DNA of 30,752 nucleotides from a virus: positions 1 through 30,752 of the IMG/VR virus record IMGVR_UViG_3300027784_000021, one strand, 5' to 3'. Position 1 is the first letter of the stretch. Each line of letters begins with the position of its first letter. Both the position numbers and the translations under genes were made by a program. Positions 1,793 to 27,563 of this stretch are shown here, piece by piece. The notes beneath the pieces were generated by a model, which was not told the DNA's origin, ran no database searches, and saw only the letters and a list, made by a program, of their open reading frames with translations.

Positions 1793-4312
1793 GTGGCTAT
1801 TAAGATAAGTACAAAAGAAGAATTGCTTAAAATCGGCGTTGATGAAGAATATCCATTGGATGCGGATTATGAACTGGAAAATGACATAGACCTTGAAGGC
1901 GAGAATATAGAGCCGATTGGGGGATTTGAAGAAGAACGACCTGATCCAGAAGAAGATGGACTTCAAGGAACTTTTGATGGTAATGGTTATAAAATTTACA
2001 ATGGCAAATTAGAACATCCAGAAGAATCTGGTGTCGGATTATTCTCATATATTGGCAAGAATGGTAAAGTTAAAAACTTAGGTGTAGATGGTGTAGATGT
2101 GGAAGTAGAAGGAGAAATGCCTGTAGGCGGTTTAGCTGGAGCTAACTTTGGAGACATCCAAAATAGTTACGCAACGGGAGATGTAACAGGAAATAGTAGG
2201 CCTGTAGGCGGTTTAGCTGGTGGTAACTTTGGAGACATCCAAAATAGTTACGCAACGGGAGATGTAACAGGAAATAGTAGGTATGTAGGCGGTTTAGTTG
2301 GACGTAACAGAAGTGATGCCAAAATATACAATAGTTATGCTACAGGAGATGTAGAAGGAGAAGAAGAAGTAGGAGGTTTAGCTGGATATAATTCAGGAGA
2401 AATCCAAAATACCTATGCAATAGGAAATGTAACAGGAGAAGAACAATTAGGCGGTTTAGTTGGATATAATTCAGGAGAAATCCAAAATAGCTACTGGGAC
2501 ACTGAAACATCAGGAATTGAAGAAGGAATCGGCGAAGATGAAGGCACAACCGAAAATGTAGAAGGCAAAACTACTGTTGAAATGACGGTAATAGATACTT
2601 ATAGTAATTGGGATATAGCAAAATTGGATGATTTGGAGGATGAAATCTGGAAAATTAAAGATAAATATGATTATCCGAGACTATCTTGGGAGGATTATGA
2701 TGCTCCAGAAGAGCCATTGGGTTTTAAACCTATAAATGATTATGATGATTTAAAAAAAATTGGTGTTGAAGAAGATTACCCGCTTGATGGGGGCTATTAT
2801 CTTACTCAAGATATAGATTGCGCTGGGGAAGACCCCTTCCCCGGCATAGGTATGATAGATGATCCAGTCAATCCTAACCCTGATTTGATGTTTACTGGAA
2901 CTTTTGACGGACAAGGAAATACTATTAAAAACCTAACTATGAATAACATGGATAATCCTGATAACTCATTTTGTAATTTTATAGTAAATGCAGGCGCAGT
3001 AAAGGACTTGAATTTTGAAAATATTGATTTTACGGGTTTTTTTCACGTTGGGGCTTTTGTAAATACTGGTAATATTGAGAACTGTCATGTATTGTCTGGA
3101 CAAGTAAAAGGTGAGATTTTAGAGGGTTCGGATATGTCCCCTGAAGTTGGGGGCTTTGCGAGTGCGGTGGTGACTATGGGGGAGGTTACCGCTAAGGTGG
3201 AGAATTGTACTACATACGCTGAAGTAATTTCTGATGAATATGCTGGTGGTTTTGTTTATGTTGTGAATGAAGGGGCGGAAATAAATAATTGTCAAGCTCA
3301 TGGTAATGTTGAATCTGGTGATAGAGGGGCGGGGTTTGTAGTATTTCTAAATGAATCGTGTTCTATTAATTATTGTCAAGCCCATGGAGATGTACAGGGT
3401 GGCGACCTTTCTGCGGGTTTTGTGATGGATGTGGATGGAATAGTTGATAATAGTTTTTCTACTGGAAATGTTGTTGCTGATTCTCATAGGTTGGCTGGAT
3501 TTGCAGTTGATGTAAGAGGTCGCGGGGAAGTTAATAATTGCTATTCTACAGGAGATGTAGAATCTATAGATGAGGAAGCAACTACTTATTATGTTGCTGG
3601 ATTTGTTCGATTTATAGCCGATGGAGGATTAGTAAAAAACTGCTATTCTACCGGGAAACCTACTTCTCCAGATTCGAATGGTTTATATGGTTTTGTTGGA
3701 ATAAACCATGGTACGGTTGAAAACTGTTTTTGGGATATGGATACTTCTGAAGTAGATTCTTCTGATGCGGGTGAAGGCAAAACCACTGATGAAATGAAAC
3801 AACAATCCACTTACTCCGAATGGGATATAGCTAAAAAAGAAGATCATACTGATGAGATATGGTATATTGAACAAGATAAAGATTATCCTCGCTTATACTG
3901 GGAGTTAAAAGAAGAAGAGGAAGATAAAGAAGATCCATACGAACTTGTAGTAACTCATACTCCTGGAGAAAGGATTAACGATCATCTTGACATGGAACGT
4001 CATATTTACCATAGATTAGAAAATGTACCTAAAGAACTTAGGGATGAAGCTGATTTTATACTAGTACAGAAAGAACCTGAAGATCCGCAAGCAGAACCGC
4101 CTGCGGAATATGATGTGGTAAAACAGCCTGAAGATTTTAATTTTGTTACGGTGTATAGTCCCCATAGATTTGCAGGCTATTTCCCTGGGCATGTTATATT
4201 ATATGTTAGTGCCCATAGGACGGCTACGCGGTATGAAGTTTTGGGGCATAGTGGTATGTTACAGATGGGGGATGATGTGCCTGCGGGGATTGCTACTAAG
4301 GAAGAAGTATAA
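1793..4312 (+). CDS. GLUG-repeat beta-helix protein, probable fibre or adhesin, 839 aa
   Basis: GTG at 1793 follows GAGGTGG. Residues about 1-100 open a first block (STKEELLKIG, then FDGNGYKI). Residues about 109-236 carry GLUG repeats of the form GGLAGxNxGxIQNSYATGDVTG, typical of right-handed beta-helix surface proteins. A second block begins near residue 309 with the same opening pattern (YDDLKKIGVEEDYPLD, then FDGQGNTI) and has more divergent repeats, including CYSTGDV. Each block ends in a YPRLxWE motif. Residues about 716-839 form a separate module shared with the N-terminus of the next gene. GLUG proteins are usually extracellular; in a phage structural cluster a receptor-binding or fibre role is the best inference. 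The repeat region favours A-ending codons (gga, aca, gta) more than the capsid genes, which suggests acquisition. No signal peptide is seen. Confidence 0.8.
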   Translation: MAIKISTKEELLKIGVDEEYPLDADYELENDIDLEGENIEPIGGFEEERPDPEEDGLQGTFDGNGYKIYNGKLEHPEESGVGLFSYIGKNGKVKNLGVDGVDVEVEGEMPVGGLAGANFGDIQNSYATGDVTGNSRPVGGLAGGNFGDIQNSYATGDVTGNSRYVGGLVGRNRSDAKIYNSYATGDVEGEEEVGGLAGYNSGEIQNTYAIGNVTGEEQLGGLVGYNSGEIQNSYWDTETSGIEEGIGEDEGTTENVEGKTTVEMTVIDTYSNWDIAKLDDLEDEIWKIKDKYDYPRLSWEDYDAPEEPLGFKPINDYDDLKKIGVEEDYPLDGGYYLTQDIDCAGEDPFPGIGMIDDPVNPNPDLMFTGTFDGQGNTIKNLTMNNMDNPDNSFCNFIVNAGAVKDLNFENIDFTGFFHVGAFVNTGNIENCHVLSGQVKGEILEGSDMSPEVGGFASAVVTMGEVTAKVENCTTYAEVISDEYAGGFVYVVNEGAEINNCQAHGNVESGDRGAGFVVFLNESCSINYCQAHGDVQGGDLSAGFVMDVDGIVDNSFSTGNVVADSHRLAGFAVDVRGRGEVNNCYSTGDVESIDEEATTYYVAGFVRFIADGGLVKNCYSTGKPTSPDSNGLYGFVGINHGTVENCFWDMDTSEVDSSDAGEGKTTDEMKQQSTYSEWDIAKKEDHTDEIWYIEQDKDYPRLYWELKEEEEDKEDPYELVVTHTPGERINDHLDMERHIYHRLENVPKELRDEADFILVQKEPEDPQAEPPAEYDVVKQPEDFNFVTVYSPHRFAGYFPGHVILYVSAHRTATRYEVLGHSGMLQMGDDVPAGIATKEEV
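2120..2281 (+). repeat. two tandem 81-bp GLUG repeats, nearly identical
   Basis: The units at 2120-2200 and 2201-2281 differ at two adjacent codons only (two base changes by eye). Each encodes one 27-residue GLUG repeat. A third, more diverged unit begins at 2282. The near identity at silent positions indicates recent duplication or gene conversion, and the array can change length without breaking the frame. Confidence 0.9.
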
Positions 4313-17970: not shown

Positions 17971-18570
17971 TTGAGCAGGGAATCTGGTTTTGGGAAATTA
18001 TCTCCCAGTCAAGGCGAAAAAGATTTGTTGGTAAGGTGGCACAACGAATCTGCTGGCTTGCGGGGAGTTTTTTGCACTTATTACCCCGTGGCAGAAAGTG
18101 TGGCTAACCTGTATTCTGATCGGCAGATTGTTTATGAAGATCCTGTGGAACTGTATATCCACCTTGATCAGTACCCTTCAATAAAGTTTTTGCGTAATTT
18201 AGGTTGGTATGTAGAGGATAAGGATAACTTGCCTATCTTGGCGTATTTGCCACACAGCACTTATGGGCAGGACTACTGGACACCACACCATGAAGCACAG
18301 CCACCTGTGCCAGACATGGAATATTTGCCGGTTAAGCGTGGGGCCAAGTTGGTTTTACATTCCAATGTGGCAGATTCGTTGAACGAAAGGGAGTTTATAG
18401 TTACGGATACCCGAACTGGGGAGCTTCCACACGTTGCAACAATTTGTAAGTTAGCGCCTGTAAGAATGCTTTATCAACCTACGGAGCATTCGGAAGGGCA
18501 AGATCCTAATTACCAGTATCTGAAGCGTAAAAATGAAAACATCGTGGTGAAGAAAGATGCCAATGATTGA
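17971..18570 (+). CDS. unknown neck-region protein, 199 aa
   Basis: TTG at 17971 follows AAGGGGGTA at about 10 bases. The product appears to be a beta-rich, single-domain protein (RGVFCTYYPVAESVANLYSD; EDPVELYIHLDQYPSIKFL; KRGAKLVLHSNVADSLNERE; EFIVTDTRTGELPHVATICK). It has no signal or membrane segment. It overlaps the next gene by 14 bases, showing translational coupling. Position between the connector candidate and the gp10-like protein suggests a neck or head-completion component. I do not recognise the family. Confidence 0.65.
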   Translation: MSRESGFGKLSPSQGEKDLLVRWHNESAGLRGVFCTYYPVAESVANLYSDRQIVYEDPVELYIHLDQYPSIKFLRNLGWYVEDKDNLPILAYLPHSTYGQDYWTPHHEAQPPVPDMEYLPVKRGAKLVLHSNVADSLNEREFIVTDTRTGELPHVATICKLAPVRMLYQPTEHSEGQDPNYQYLKRKNENIVVKKDAND

Positions 18571-19066
18571 TAGGCGTTTTTATATTTATATACAGACGAT
18601 AAACAAGTCGTGGCGACCTGGGGAAATAATGATCCAGGAAGAAGATCGCCATTTAGCGCCATATTTTGCTCGGTATATGGCACGTGTTTTGGTTGACGAA
18701 TTGCAGCAGGCGATAGATGATCAGCGTTATGCCAGGCATTGGCCCCCGTTAAGCATTCCTTACTATGAATACAAGAAGAAAAAAGGGCTTAGTTTGAAGA
18801 TGTGGGAAGCTACGGGGCTATTAAGGGATTCCATAACGTATTTTAAGTTTGGCAATGCTTGGGTCGTGGGGGTTGATCCCGCTAAAACATATCCAGACAC
18901 GCCAGTTTTGGTTTATCGGGTTATGAAATACTTGGAACACGGAACGGTTAAGATGCCACCTAGACCGCTAGTAACGCCTGTGGCTGCGAATGTGCGGAAA
19001 AGCATATCAAGGCATTGGAATGCTTTTACAAACCGATTGGAGGAAGAATTGCAATATGGGCATTGA
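18557..19066 (+). CDS. HK97-gp10-like tail completion protein, 169 aa
   Basis: The gene overlaps the previous one by 14 bases. ATG at 18557 and 18563 are both possible, with only a weak GAAGAAAG site, so translation probably couples to the upstream gene. The pattern fits HK97-gp10-like minor tail or neck proteins: a helical N-terminus (LAPYFARYMARVLVDELQQA), a central LWEATG/LLRDSITYFKFGNAWVVGVD unit, then the typical EHGTVKMPPRPLVTPVAANV ending, where a leu-glu-x-Gly-Thr turn leads to P-x-R-P. These proteins help join the head connector to the tail. The gene ends inside the start of the next one. Confidence 0.75.
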   Translation: MPMIDRRFYIYIQTINKSWRPGEIMIQEEDRHLAPYFARYMARVLVDELQQAIDDQRYARHWPPLSIPYYEYKKKKGLSLKMWEATGLLRDSITYFKFGNAWVVGVDPAKTYPDTPVLVYRVMKYLEHGTVKMPPRPLVTPVAANVRKSISRHWNAFTNRLEEELQYGH

Positions 19067-19826: not shown

Positions 19827-19882
19827 TACCTTGAAAGCTTTGTTTGACTTGTGTTTTGATAATAGTTTAGGGGGTGTTTGTA

Positions 19883-21757
19883 GTGCCTAGTGGAGATTTG
19901 AAGAATACGATTCCACGTATAACTACTAAAGAAAAGGATTTTACGGACTACGTTTCGGAAACCTTGTTTGGTACGTCATTTGGTTTGGTAGGGCCTGCCA
20001 CGAAAGGGCCGACTAACAAGGTGGTCGAAGTTCGTACGCCGAATGAGTTTCTGCGGTTGTTTGGTAAACCTGTCAAGAAATCGTATGCGACCATGGCGGC
20101 CTTATTATACTTAGAAGCAGGAAACCGCCTTAGCTTTGCACGCATCGGGGTGGAAGATAAAATGAAGTACGCTGAAAAGAAAGTCGTTGATGAATCAGAT
20201 AGTGACGCTTTGCGTTTCTATGGTGAATCAAAAGGAAGCTGGGCGAATGGTGTTAAGGTTAATATCCGGTTGGTGCATAAGGACAATGAGGATATTGGCG
20301 ATGCTGCGGAAGCAGAAGTCGGTGACATGACAATCAAATATCGTGTTGCTGGCGAGCATGGCAACGATGGTTCTGTTGAAGTGGATGATAGCTTGGATGC
20401 TGTAAGGGATTTGGATGTGGCTTATGATGAAGATGCTAAGAAGTTAACCGTGGAATTAGCCACCAAGGATGATGACGGTACTGTGGTTTTAGACGATTCC
20501 AAGAATACGGTAAGCAGGGTTGCTAGGGCCATTGAACTTACGGGTGAATTCGATGTTGCTTATGACGATGGCGATGCGGATAATGTTATTGATGACACGC
20601 TTGCCGATACTTACGAATTTTCTGGCGGTTCTGGTTATAGGTATGAGCAGGATCTGTTCCGTCTGGAATTTTTGGATAGTGAGGGTGATTTGCTACAAGC
20701 TTATGGTATTGTGTCCTTGAATGACGATGATAACAATTATGTTGTTTCAGAGTTGGACGGTTCAGACTATTTGCGTGTGGAAGATTTGCTTGATGGGCAA
20801 GGTTTGTCGGAAGGCACTTTTTTGAAGGAAGGGGTTTATGAACTTTCTGGGGGCGATGACGGTGACGATGCTCTTGATTACGGGCATTTTGAAGATGCCT
20901 TGGAACTTTTTAAGCCACGGGATATTATAAGTGCCAGGATGCTAGCTGCCCCAGACAATCAACACACACGGGTGGTTGAAAAGCTCATTAGTGTTGCTGA
21001 ACATCGCAAGGTTACGGTGGCTTTGATAGACCCGCCAGAAGGCATGAGCAAAAGACATGTTGTGCGTTGGCACAATGGTTTGTTGCAGGGTTCTGTATAT
21101 CCTGAACAGAAAATTGATAGTAGTTATGCGGGGATTTATTGGCCTGAAGTTGAGGTTGATGTGCCGTATCTCGAAGATCCCGTGTGGATGCCTCCTAGTG
21201 GTATAGTTGCAGCCTTGCGTTCCGAAGCTGCGGAAGCACGTAATCCCTGGGATGCTGTTGCAGGTATACGGCGTGGGGTACATCATCGTATTCGGGATGT
21301 CCGAAAGCATCTTGATGAAGATGACCAGTATGATTTGTATGCTGAAGGCAATCGGATTAATCCGATAATCAAGGTACAGAACATTGGTGTAATGATTAAC
21401 GGCAACCGGACGGCCCAGACCTATCCGACATCCTTAGATCGTATGAATGTTAGGGATGCTATGATTGAAATTGCGCTGGGTATGATTGAAGCGGGTAGGA
21501 TGGTGAAGTTTGAGCCTAATGACCCGCATACCTGGAATGAATTTCGGGGTTATGCGAAGCCGATATTGCGTAGGGTAGTTGATGGACGTGGCTTGTACTG
21601 GTTTGATATTAAGATCAAGCCTACGGAAGAAGATATTCAAGCAGGGAGGCTACCGATTGAAGTGCATGTTTCGCCTACTCGGGTGGCTGAACAGATTGAT
21701 ATTACCTTTATCTTGACTGACAAGGGTGTTTCCGAAGTGTTGGAAGAAGCTAGCTAG
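19883..21757 (+). CDS. contractile tail sheath protein, T4 gp18-like, 624 aa
   Basis: GTG at 19883 follows TTAGGGGGTG; a GTG at 19874 overlaps that site and is rejected. Sheath signatures: an N-terminal GTSFGLVGPATKGPTNKVVE then TPNEFLRLFGKP, a domain with KVTVALIDPPEGMSKRHVVR, and the C-terminal QNIGVMINGNRTAQTYPTSL then FEPNDPHTWNEFRGYAKPIL. Length is close to T4 gp18 (659 aa). The sheath forms stacked hexamers around the tube and contracts to drive it through the envelope. A very acidic variable region covers about residues 100-340. The last 46 residues, which should form the inter-subunit mesh strands, are duplicated in the next small gene. Confidence 0.95.
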   Translation: MPSGDLKNTIPRITTKEKDFTDYVSETLFGTSFGLVGPATKGPTNKVVEVRTPNEFLRLFGKPVKKSYATMAALLYLEAGNRLSFARIGVEDKMKYAEKKVVDESDSDALRFYGESKGSWANGVKVNIRLVHKDNEDIGDAAEAEVGDMTIKYRVAGEHGNDGSVEVDDSLDAVRDLDVAYDEDAKKLTVELATKDDDGTVVLDDSKNTVSRVARAIELTGEFDVAYDDGDADNVIDDTLADTYEFSGGSGYRYEQDLFRLEFLDSEGDLLQAYGIVSLNDDDNNYVVSELDGSDYLRVEDLLDGQGLSEGTFLKEGVYELSGGDDGDDALDYGHFEDALELFKPRDIISARMLAAPDNQHTRVVEKLISVAEHRKVTVALIDPPEGMSKRHVVRWHNGLLQGSVYPEQKIDSSYAGIYWPEVEVDVPYLEDPVWMPPSGIVAALRSEAAEARNPWDAVAGIRRGVHHRIRDVRKHLDEDDQYDLYAEGNRINPIIKVQNIGVMINGNRTAQTYPTSLDRMNVRDAMIEIALGMIEAGRMVKFEPNDPHTWNEFRGYAKPILRRVVDGRGLYWFDIKIKPTEEDIQAGRLPIEVHVSPTRVAEQIDITFILTDKGVSEVLEEAS

Positions 21758-21775
21758 GCGATAGCCATGCTAGCT
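21748..21775 (+). other. hairpin over the sheath stop codon
   Basis: AGCTAGC (21748-21754) pairs with GCTAGCT (21769-21775). The 14-base loop contains a nested GGC-GATA-GCC mini-hairpin. The stem covers the last sense codons and lies next to the TAG. It has no T-run. It separates the sheath gene from its small partial duplicate and may lower readthrough to it, or mark the duplication junction. Confidence 0.4.
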
Positions 21776-21798
21776 GAACAAGCTTGGGGGTGTTACGG

Positions 21799-21933
21799 AT
21801 GCTAATTGAGATCAATGTTACGGAAGAAGATATTCAAGCGGGGCGTTTGCCAGTTGAAGTCTATGTTTCGCCTACTTGGGCGGCTGAACAGATTGATGTT
21901 GATTTTGTTTTGGCTGGCGATGATGTTGGTTAA
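21799..21933 (+). CDS. stand-alone duplicate of the sheath C-terminus, 44 aa
   Basis: ATG at 21799 follows TTGGGGGTG, the same ribosome site used by the sheath and tube genes. The product contains TEEDIQAGRLPVEVYVSPT and AAEQIDVDFVL, matching the sheath end (TEEDIQAGRLPIEVHVSPT, VAEQIDITFIL) at 24 of 31 residues. At DNA level 21820-21915 matches 21623-21718 at 78 of 96 bases by hand count. The frame is intact, with its own start, ribosome site and stop, and changes include both silent and amino-acid differences. In contractile sheaths the C-terminal strands join neighbouring subunits, so a free strand unit could cap the sheath end or modulate assembly. It may instead be a decaying duplication. 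Confidence 0.65.
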   Translation: MLIEINVTEEDIQAGRLPVEVYVSPTWAAEQIDVDFVLAGDDVG

Positions 21934-22030
21934 GTGGTGGTTTGTTTTACTTGGTGCGTAACTTTACTTTGCATTCTTACATTTACATGGATTAGTTTTG
22001 TTGGTTGATCAAATTTTGGGGGTGTTAAGG

Positions 22031-22546
22031 ATGCAAAAGTGGGGTGCTACCCGCCTAGCGGATTCCAGGGATCTGGAAGTCCAAAGGGAAAATCATTTTG
22101 AACTACAGCTTGTAGGAAATGGGAATGTTGATTTTGGAGAGGATTTCACTATATCGGTGGAAAGTTTTCCGTTGCCGACTGAAACATCTGAACAGTTGGA
22201 AGTGCCTTATGGTAACACTACTGTGAATTTAGCTGGTCGTGTTTCTTGGGGTGCTGGTGCCCTTGTGGTTCGTGACTTTGTGGACAAGAAAACAAAGGCT
22301 ATTTTGATTGATTGGCGGTCGCAATGTTACAACCATGAAACTGATCAGGTAGGCAGGGCTAGTGATTATAAAACCCAAGGTTATGTTTATGAATATTCGG
22401 TTGATGGGCAATTAACAGGTATGTGGGAGCTACAAGGTGTTTGGCCACAAGAAGTAAACTACGGTAATTTAACTCACCAGAGTGGCGAACGTAAGAACAT
22501 AGAAGCGAACCTTGTTTACGACAAGTGTACGCCTATTGAATACTAA
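22031..22546 (+). CDS. tail tube protein, T4 gp19-like, 171 aa
   Basis: The frame is open from 21998, but ATG at 22031 follows TTTGGGGGTG at 7 bases. The protein has the size of T4 gp19 (163 aa) and its pattern: an N-terminal NHFELQLVGNG-like strand after DSRDLEVQRE, an IDWRSQCYNHETDQVG segment, then KTQGYVYEYSVDGQLTGMWE and LQGVWPQEVNYGNLTHQSGE, with an ending IEANLVYDKC, all typical of tube proteins that report type, location and strand-swapping. It stacks as hexameric rings inside the sheath. It lies after the sheath, as in T4-like phages. Confidence 0.93.
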   Translation: MQKWGATRLADSRDLEVQRENHFELQLVGNGNVDFGEDFTISVESFPLPTETSEQLEVPYGNTTVNLAGRVSWGAGALVVRDFVDKKTKAILIDWRSQCYNHETDQVGRASDYKTQGYVYEYSVDGQLTGMWELQGVWPQEVNYGNLTHQSGERKNIEANLVYDKCTPIEY

Positions 22547-26650: not shown

Positions 26651-27151
26651 ATGACTTTTCCCAGTATAGACGAATCAGTTACCTTGCATGTTTTGTGTTT
26701 AGAGCGCGATGTTAGTAAGCGCTTGTTTATACTGCCTGATGAATTTAATCGTTCCAATGCAGCCCAGTATGATGAGGCGGATGTTCGTCTGCGTAGTAAT
26801 CCGTTCCGTGGATATTCTTCAGGTGGGCCGTCAGTAACTAGCCTAACCATACCCTTGCATGATGATTTGCTGCGCCATAGAGGGGAAACTATTATGTCTG
26901 TGATTGATTTTTTTGAAGCACTAGCACATCCGCATTATTATACGGAAGGCAATAGGGTGGCTTCGCCTAGGGTGCTAATCCGTATTGGTGATTTTTTCAA
27001 GATGCGTGGCAATCCAGACAATGTGGATGTCACGTTTCGCAAACCGTACCGCAACGGTATTTATCTGCAAGCTGATATATCAGTAACTATGTCTGAAGCG
27101 TTGCGTGTGCCTTTGGCTGCGGTTAATGTGCATCAAGGGGAACGCAGGTAA
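26651..27151 (+). CDS. baseplate/tail protein upstream of wedge gene, 166 aa
   Basis: ATG at 26651 follows GGTGGTGG, 14 bases after the tape measure stop. The product is beta-rich: DESVTLHVLCLERDVSKRLF, then GGPSVTSLTIPLHDDLLRHR, and a PRVLIRIGDFFKMRGNPDNV strand pair, ending in QADISVTMSEALRVPLAAVN. Proteins of this kind commonly lie between the tape measure and the hub and act as baseplate hub or LysM adaptor components; here no LysM repeat is visible in this gene. The assignment is by position and fold pattern. Confidence 0.6.
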   Translation: MTFPSIDESVTLHVLCLERDVSKRLFILPDEFNRSNAAQYDEADVRLRSNPFRGYSSGGPSVTSLTIPLHDDLLRHRGETIMSVIDFFEALAHPHYYTEGNRVASPRVLIRIGDFFKMRGNPDNVDVTFRKPYRNGIYLQADISVTMSEALRVPLAAVNVHQGERR

Positions 27152-27170
27152 GAAGTTTGGGGGGTTGAAC

Positions 27171-27563
27171 ATGCCTAATGAAGAAATGATTCATAGTTAT
27201 GTGTTGCATAGGGAACGGGGGTATGATCGGGAATATATAGCGGAACATGGTATGGATCAAATAAATTCCCGGTATCGTAAGCTACGGCGTTATATAGATG
27301 AAAAAGGCCGTAAATTCGTTGAAACCCCTGAACGTTTGTATATACCAGAAAGCGATGACGATGTGGAATTTCAGGTAGGGCCAGAAGTTGAAAACCGTAT
27401 TGACCTTATAGCCCATAGGTTTTATGGCGATCATCGTTTTTTCTGGATTATTGCCATAGCCAATGATCTGCACTTTCCTTATGACGTGGCTATTGGTGAC
27501 ATAATTAGGATTCCGCCATTGGAAGTAGTTATAGAAAGCGGTGGTGTTTTGTCATTATGGTAA
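27171..27563 (+). CDS. T4 gp53-like / LysM-like baseplate wedge protein, 130 aa
   Basis: ATG at 27171 follows TTTGGGGGG; the open frame from 27105 overlaps the previous gene and is not needed. The C-terminal half contains ENRIDLIAHRFYGDHRFFW, then IIAIANDLHFPYDVAIGDII followed by RIPP, the pattern shared by gp53-like wedge proteins and LysM-type adaptors. The N-terminal half is charged and helical. In T4 gp53 helps link wedges into the baseplate. The gene overlaps the hub gene by 7 bases, indicating coupled translation. Confidence 0.75.
   Translation: MPNEEMIHSYVLHRERGYDREYIAEHGMDQINSRYRKLRRYIDEKGRKFVETPERLYIPESDDDVEFQVGPEVENRIDLIAHRFYGDHRFFWIIAIANDLHFPYDVAIGDIIRIPPLEVVIESGGVLSLW

Follow-up and report, generated by a model that had tools for sequence, protein, structure and literature searches.

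In the accessible portions of the structural reports on the sheaths of phage XM1, phage Milano and the T6SS, the N- and C-terminal strands of neighbouring subunits complete a sheet on two platform strands, here called the handshake region, and the C-terminal arm of the Milano sheath comprises residues 486-503. The ends of the XM1 sheath, according to the excerpts on this phage, are the site of action of terminator and initiator proteins, which work by strand addition or as a cap. The XM1 tail terminator gp5 adds a strand at the sheath end, a role that would be open to a free strand, and gp5 itself is a hexameric ring protein. The sheath initiator (gp25-like; gp15 in XM1) forms an entire domain (about 117 residues in the XM1 protein), whereas the gene described here encodes a strand fragment. 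Some phages have two sheath genes, and sheath duplication has been shown for several jumbo phages, as stated in the available excerpts. In the openly licensed PMC literature, as far as its retrieved text goes, no description of a free-standing sheath strand gene was found, and a free ORF for sheath strands with its own start is new with respect to these papers.

The window, which is the whole stretch of 30,752 nucleotides (30.7 kb) that was analysed, belongs to a T4-like contractile-tailed phage, as judged from its recognisable structural genes: portal, prohead protease, gp23-like capsid, sheath, tube, a baseplate hub-type protein and a baseplate wedge subunit. The two tail genes of interest and the small ORF between them, the mini-gene, are the following:

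19874 to 21757, plus strand: tail sheath gene (gp18-like), matching PHROG 23 tail sheath with E 3e-57
21799 to 21933, plus strand: mini-gene of 44 aa, with ATG at 21799 and stop codon TAA at 21931-21933
22031 to 22546, plus strand: tail tube gene (gp19-like), matching PHROG 4542 tail tube with E 3e-14

The sheath protein matches solved T4-like sheaths by profile (best E 4e-89) and aligns with them over nearly its full length; its match to Pfam PF17482 has an E of 0.0034 only, below the cut-off of that family, and the tube gene matches Pfam Phage_T4_gp19 with E 1e-3, also below cut-off. The listed sheath ORF starts at GTG 19874, from which sheath residues are counted here, and a Shine-Dalgarno-like site at 19870 precedes GTG 19883, which may be the true start. 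The possibility that the phage already encodes both an initiator and a terminator was set aside, neither being identified with confidence: the baseplate wedge subunit at 27105-27563 is of unstated type, with weak matches to gp53 and to gp26-type chains (presumably of phage P1), the ORF at 18557-19066 has weak neck or tail-completion matches only, and profile and family searches singled out no gene of the window as a confident tail terminator.

The sheath stop (21757) and the tube ATG (22031) are separated by 273 nt, which contain the 44-codon ORF, so that an ORF repeating the sheath end directly behind the sheath gene is present as the original prediction had it. Read from an upstream TTG instead, it would be 49 aa long. 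A read-through fusion of sheath and mini-gene was rejected because the mini-gene lies in another frame. Between the two genes no terminator-like site was found and promoter-like matches are at chance level, and Rfam families gave no match across the window. A hairpin of 7 + 3 base pairs, at 21748-21775, covers the sheath stop codon, with a folding energy that is not significant (z -1.67).

The similarity between the mini-gene and the sheath gene is carried by a direct repeat:

21608 to 21743, plus strand: source segment of the repeat, in the sheath gene, beginning at residue 579 and stopping 11 nt short of the stop codon
21805 to 21940, plus strand: second copy, with 105 of 136 bases identical to 21608-21743

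This identity of 77%, without any indel (blastn E 1e-25 within the record), is far beyond chance, and the earlier hand count of 78 of 96 bases proved exact for 21624-21719. The similarity extends 7 nt beyond the mini-gene stop and falls to chance level after that, on the sheath side after 21743. Mini-gene residues from the third onward are homologous to sheath residues 579-620, and the last 7 sheath residues have no counterpart. The changed C-terminus that had been described does differ from that of the sheath, but its tailoring comes down to substitutions plus a TAA codon where the sheath copy has GAA.

The start of the mini-gene has another resemblance, to the start of the tube gene:

21768 to 21802, plus strand: 5' region of the mini-gene, similar to 21999-22034
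21999 to 22034, plus strand: 5' region of the tube gene, the counterpart of 21768-21802

A ribosome site had been claimed for the mini-gene, and a Shine-Dalgarno-like GGGGGTG at 21786-21792 indeed ends 6 nt before its ATG. Over the 20 bases at this site and the ATG, 18 are identical to the tube start, against at most 14 of 20 anywhere else on the two strands of the window; what had been regarded as a special new start region is thus a near copy of the tube gene start. The gapped alignment of the two 5' regions scores 38, a value reached by none of 2000 base shuffles (best 32). On its own, the similarity ahead of the Shine-Dalgarno does not reach significance (P 0.065), and over this part the mini-gene/tube pair is outscored by 5 of 46 other GGGGG sites. 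Part of the resemblance is the habitual GGGGGTGTT signal of this phage, which occurs seven times on the plus strand (window positions 1655, 6853, 7911, 14225, 19870, 21786 and 22018) and stands just before a listed ORF start at six of these sites. The gap before the mini-gene and the gap behind it otherwise do not align (P 0.25), and the distances from repeat to start differ by 35 nt between the two copies.

The peptide matches a profile of sheath C-termini with E 8e-12, the profile including the sheath row of the window itself, and PHROG 23 with E 0.025; among Pfam and NCBIfam models no family was found at E 0.1. By similarity it belongs with the C-terminal region of the sheath family (PHROG 23 / PF17482), without being a complete sheath, as only residues 579-620 of 627 are represented. 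It is not a gp25-like sheath initiator by domain, having 44 aa and two strands only and lying beside the sheath gene, and similarity was found to the sheath only and not to a tail terminator. The AlphaFold model of the sheath, whose best PDB fold match is a T4-like sheath, is of modest quality overall (mean pLDDT 57.6), with block means of 66-85 over residues 551 to 620 and 41 for the last 7 residues. Its C-terminal strands are placed at 574-581, 592-601 and 608-615. When the sheath profile is aligned with Afp2 and Pvc2, the alignment stops inside the last strand, 5-6 residues before those chains end, so this strand should be the C-terminal strand of the family.

Mapped in this way onto solved sheaths, the 44-mer would consist of the second platform strand and the donor (C-terminal) strand, and would have neither the N-terminal arm nor most of the first platform strand nor the tail. 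The original statement that the copied strands form the inter-subunit mesh is sound, because the model, the PDB sequence alignments and the solved sheaths together put them in the handshake region. Compared with T4 gp18 and PF17482, the 44-mer is a copy of the C-terminal (handshake) region with similar residues, and it shares the predicted helix and two strands of its parent sheath region; it differs in being a separate ORF that lacks the remainder of the sheath, including most of the first platform strand and the last 7 residues. The putative product is probably made, given its plausible Shine-Dalgarno and its position between two genes for which high expression may be presumed.

The distribution of the mini-gene was surveyed in 187 sources, namely the window and 186 loci, 176 of which hold a sheath ORF. 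In these 176 other sheath loci the C-terminus profile found no complete free-standing ORF for a sheath C-terminus; its four other short matches all run off a contig edge. The ends of 188 sheath ORFs (167 distinct, window included) were also searched against their own loci at E 0.01, and the second copies found besides that of the window comprise tandem sheath ORFs, either complete or truncated at a contig end, and a weak match on the minus strand of L188 that contains a stop. A capsid scan gave five loci with best-segment identities of 37-47%; three further sheath-ORF ends among them (one from phage SP-15 again) had no mini-gene. A search for the mini-gene in related phages, proposed along with the prediction, therefore gave no counterpart among what are distant relatives only, with best-segment identities to the window of about 22-37% for the sheath, 25-43% for the tube and about 37-56% for the capsid. 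The broadest scan covered the best 80 of at least 598 confirmed loci, six of the 2,213 phage records with a sheath match were examined, and the loci include duplicates (SP-15 is L004, L010, L021 and L192).

Exact-peptide scans of IMG/VR with the sheath and tube proteins confirmed no close relatives, and megablast with 25 kb of the window found none among 50,697 phage records. Against the same records the 44-mer, a short query that would miss distant copies, matched two annotated sheath genes only (E up to 1). A degenerate pattern for the shared peptide matched 9 contigs with no sheath among them, and these were rejected as carriers of the mini-gene: six encode one unrelated protein type, which we take to be DUF2163-like, one encodes another, and two hold a 56-codon frame.

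Between stop-to-stop ORFs, the gap from sheath to tube is within 60 nt in 124 of the 154 sheath ORFs with a tube downstream, and measures 208 nt in the window. Other phages carry ORFs between sheath and tube (L005, L012/L013, L030 and L031), none of which matches the sheath C-terminus profile and one of which, in L030, has what we take to be an HNH-like look; the sheath-tube junction thus tolerates insertions. Two or more tube-like ORFs stand behind the sheath gene in L083, L095, L096, L101 and L115, which shows that the tube gene, too, can have paralogs in series.

Partial tandem duplication is a familiar process and offers the explanation of the mini-gene to which we give slightly better than even chances: such a duplication gave rise to a probably translated 44-mer, which survives as a tolerated by-product and has no essential role. 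The duplicated unit would have begun at sheath codon 579, spanned the intergenic gap and ended with the tube start codon, and its head-to-tail join would have set the tube Shine-Dalgarno and ATG in frame before the last codons of the sheath. A later length change of 35 nt in one of the gaps would account for the present spacing. The new ORF would encode 44 residues with the second platform strand and the C-terminal strand of the sheath; the copies would since have diverged by about 23%, the new one ending early at its stop. The 136-nt repeat at 77%, right beside its source, supports the duplication. Of its junctions, the tube-start side is supported by the 18 of 20 matching bases, and the intergenic parts are otherwise unaligned. 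A tolerated by-product appears most likely because no examined relative has such a gene and because the copy has lost the tail. If this reading is right, the locus would be a snapshot of the birth of a small gene, in which one duplication joined the translation start of a neighbour to a fragment of a structural gene.

Selection on the peptide bears on whether the product has a role. The dN/dS between the copies, which had been proposed as a check, is 0.63 (0.243/0.389, NG86, over 42 codons), weak evidence for selection, and 0.28 over a 31-codon core that was chosen after looking. Scored with a profile built without the window, the two copies are nearly equal, with 45.2 bits for the sheath and 44.2 bits for the mini-gene. 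At the 15 residues that differ, the mini-gene is clearly more family-like at 6 and the sheath at 6, with 3 undecided. Two substitutions stand out: a G to D change where G is found in 116 and D in 1 of 161 relative C-termini, and an R to W change where R is found in 58 and W in none of the 161. In addition, the stop cuts the C-terminal tail off the peptide. The dN/dS of 0.63, these two changes and the lost tail can be read as loosened constraint.

Neutral decay was simulated from a mixed ancestor with six codons assigned by family frequency; a copy stayed open and as sheath-like as the mini-gene in 3.5-6.2% of 4000 simulations, depending on transition bias. The first 36 codons carry no constraint signal, as 21-25% of the open simulated copies score as high over that part. 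A simulation from the present sheath, with P below 0.003, was rejected as unfair because some of the changes lie on the sheath branch. The near-equal profile score, the lack of indels and this low neutral retention speak against the by-product reading, and the simulations and dN/dS values are suggestive of selection at best. The original idea of a dedicated gene with tailored ends is not supported, with a duplicated-looking tube start, no counterpart elsewhere and weak evidence for selection.

A functional strand donor is unlikely, yet deserves to be weighed against the tolerated by-product. The 44-mer would be made in bulk with sheath and tube; its C-terminal strand might enter the handshake sheet of a subunit in place of the C-terminal arm of the neighbour, thereby capping the ends of the sheath or restricting its polymerisation away from the tube. 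The copied strands map to handshake strands, the five residues that are invariant in a 7-row alignment (mini-gene included) are kept, and the profile score is sheath-like despite 23% divergence of the DNA; the dN/dS of the post hoc core and the neutral retention point the same way. The C-terminus of the XM1 tail terminator similarly adds a strand to the sheath sheet, according to the excerpt on that protein. Against these points, no other sheath locus examined has a counterpart, the peptide has lost the tail and a glycine that most relatives keep, the first 36 codons give no signal of constraint, and the handshake unit is incomplete, lacking the N-terminal arm and most of the first platform strand. 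By analogy, a free donor strand could in principle occupy the sheath platform as a cap or as a competitor. That the peptide is a non-covalent chain stopper, which caps sheath ends or restrains polymerisation away from the tube, seems quite unlikely, and we put equally little trust in the birth of such a minimal donor in one step, by a tandem duplication capturing the start of its neighbour. If functional, the peptide would regulate contractile-sheath assembly in a minimal form and would offer a ready-made probe of the handshake mesh by which sheaths cohere.

The main alternative for the origin of the mini-gene is that a second sheath gene, once present, suffered an internal deletion, which would have fused the start of that gene to its last codons and left the mini-gene as a remnant. 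Eleven other loci have tandem sheath ORFs (L109, L110, L116, L118, L119, L129, L140, L142, L145, L150 and L188), and in three of them (L118, L145 and L150) one ORF is cut by the contig end; L085, with two adjacent pieces of one sheath, was left out of this count. The two L119 sheath proteins differ in length, yet are 98% identical over their last 60 residues. Such loci (L116, L119) and the jumbo phages with two sheath genes, as far as their descriptions were accessible, resemble the present locus in having a sheath duplication beside the sheath gene, but there the whole gene is copied and here the last codons only. A remnant of this kind would also explain the unaligned gaps before and after the mini-gene. 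Its start, however, matches the tube (18 of 20 bases) and not the sheath, with 9 of 21 bases at GTG 19874 and no register above 14 of 20, and a second-sheath origin is decidedly unlikely.

Recent uptake of the C-terminus of another phage's sheath by illegitimate recombination, with no time to decay, is improbable: it would explain the 77% identity, the family-like residues and an open frame without present selection, but neither the IMG/VR exact-peptide scans nor megablast of the 50,697 phage records found a donor, the W in place of R and the D in place of G, seen in none and one of the 161 C-termini, would be odd in a working sheath, and a place directly behind the source gene is the outcome of a tandem duplication. 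More improbable still is an assembly artefact, in which the sheath C-termini of two strains were wrongly joined at the sheath-tube junction, since although the 30.7-kb virus record is probably a metagenomic contig, the joints share no long exact word and the second copy has an early stop and residues that are rare or absent in the 161 relative C-termini.

Two further observations concern insertions and repeats. In phage SP-15 (L192, 10588-11737) the gp23-like capsid gene is interrupted by an insert of about 1.15 kb with a 268-aa ORF, which to us has the appearance of an endonuclease, and no Rfam family was found at cut-off in this insertion. In the window, the remaining direct repeats of at least 40 nt lie inside a gene for a GLUG-motif protein (1793-4312, Pfam E 2e-32), except one 40-nt pair at 75%. 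The GLUG gene has tandem repeats of 78-81 nt at 2119-2523, two of which are 98% identical.
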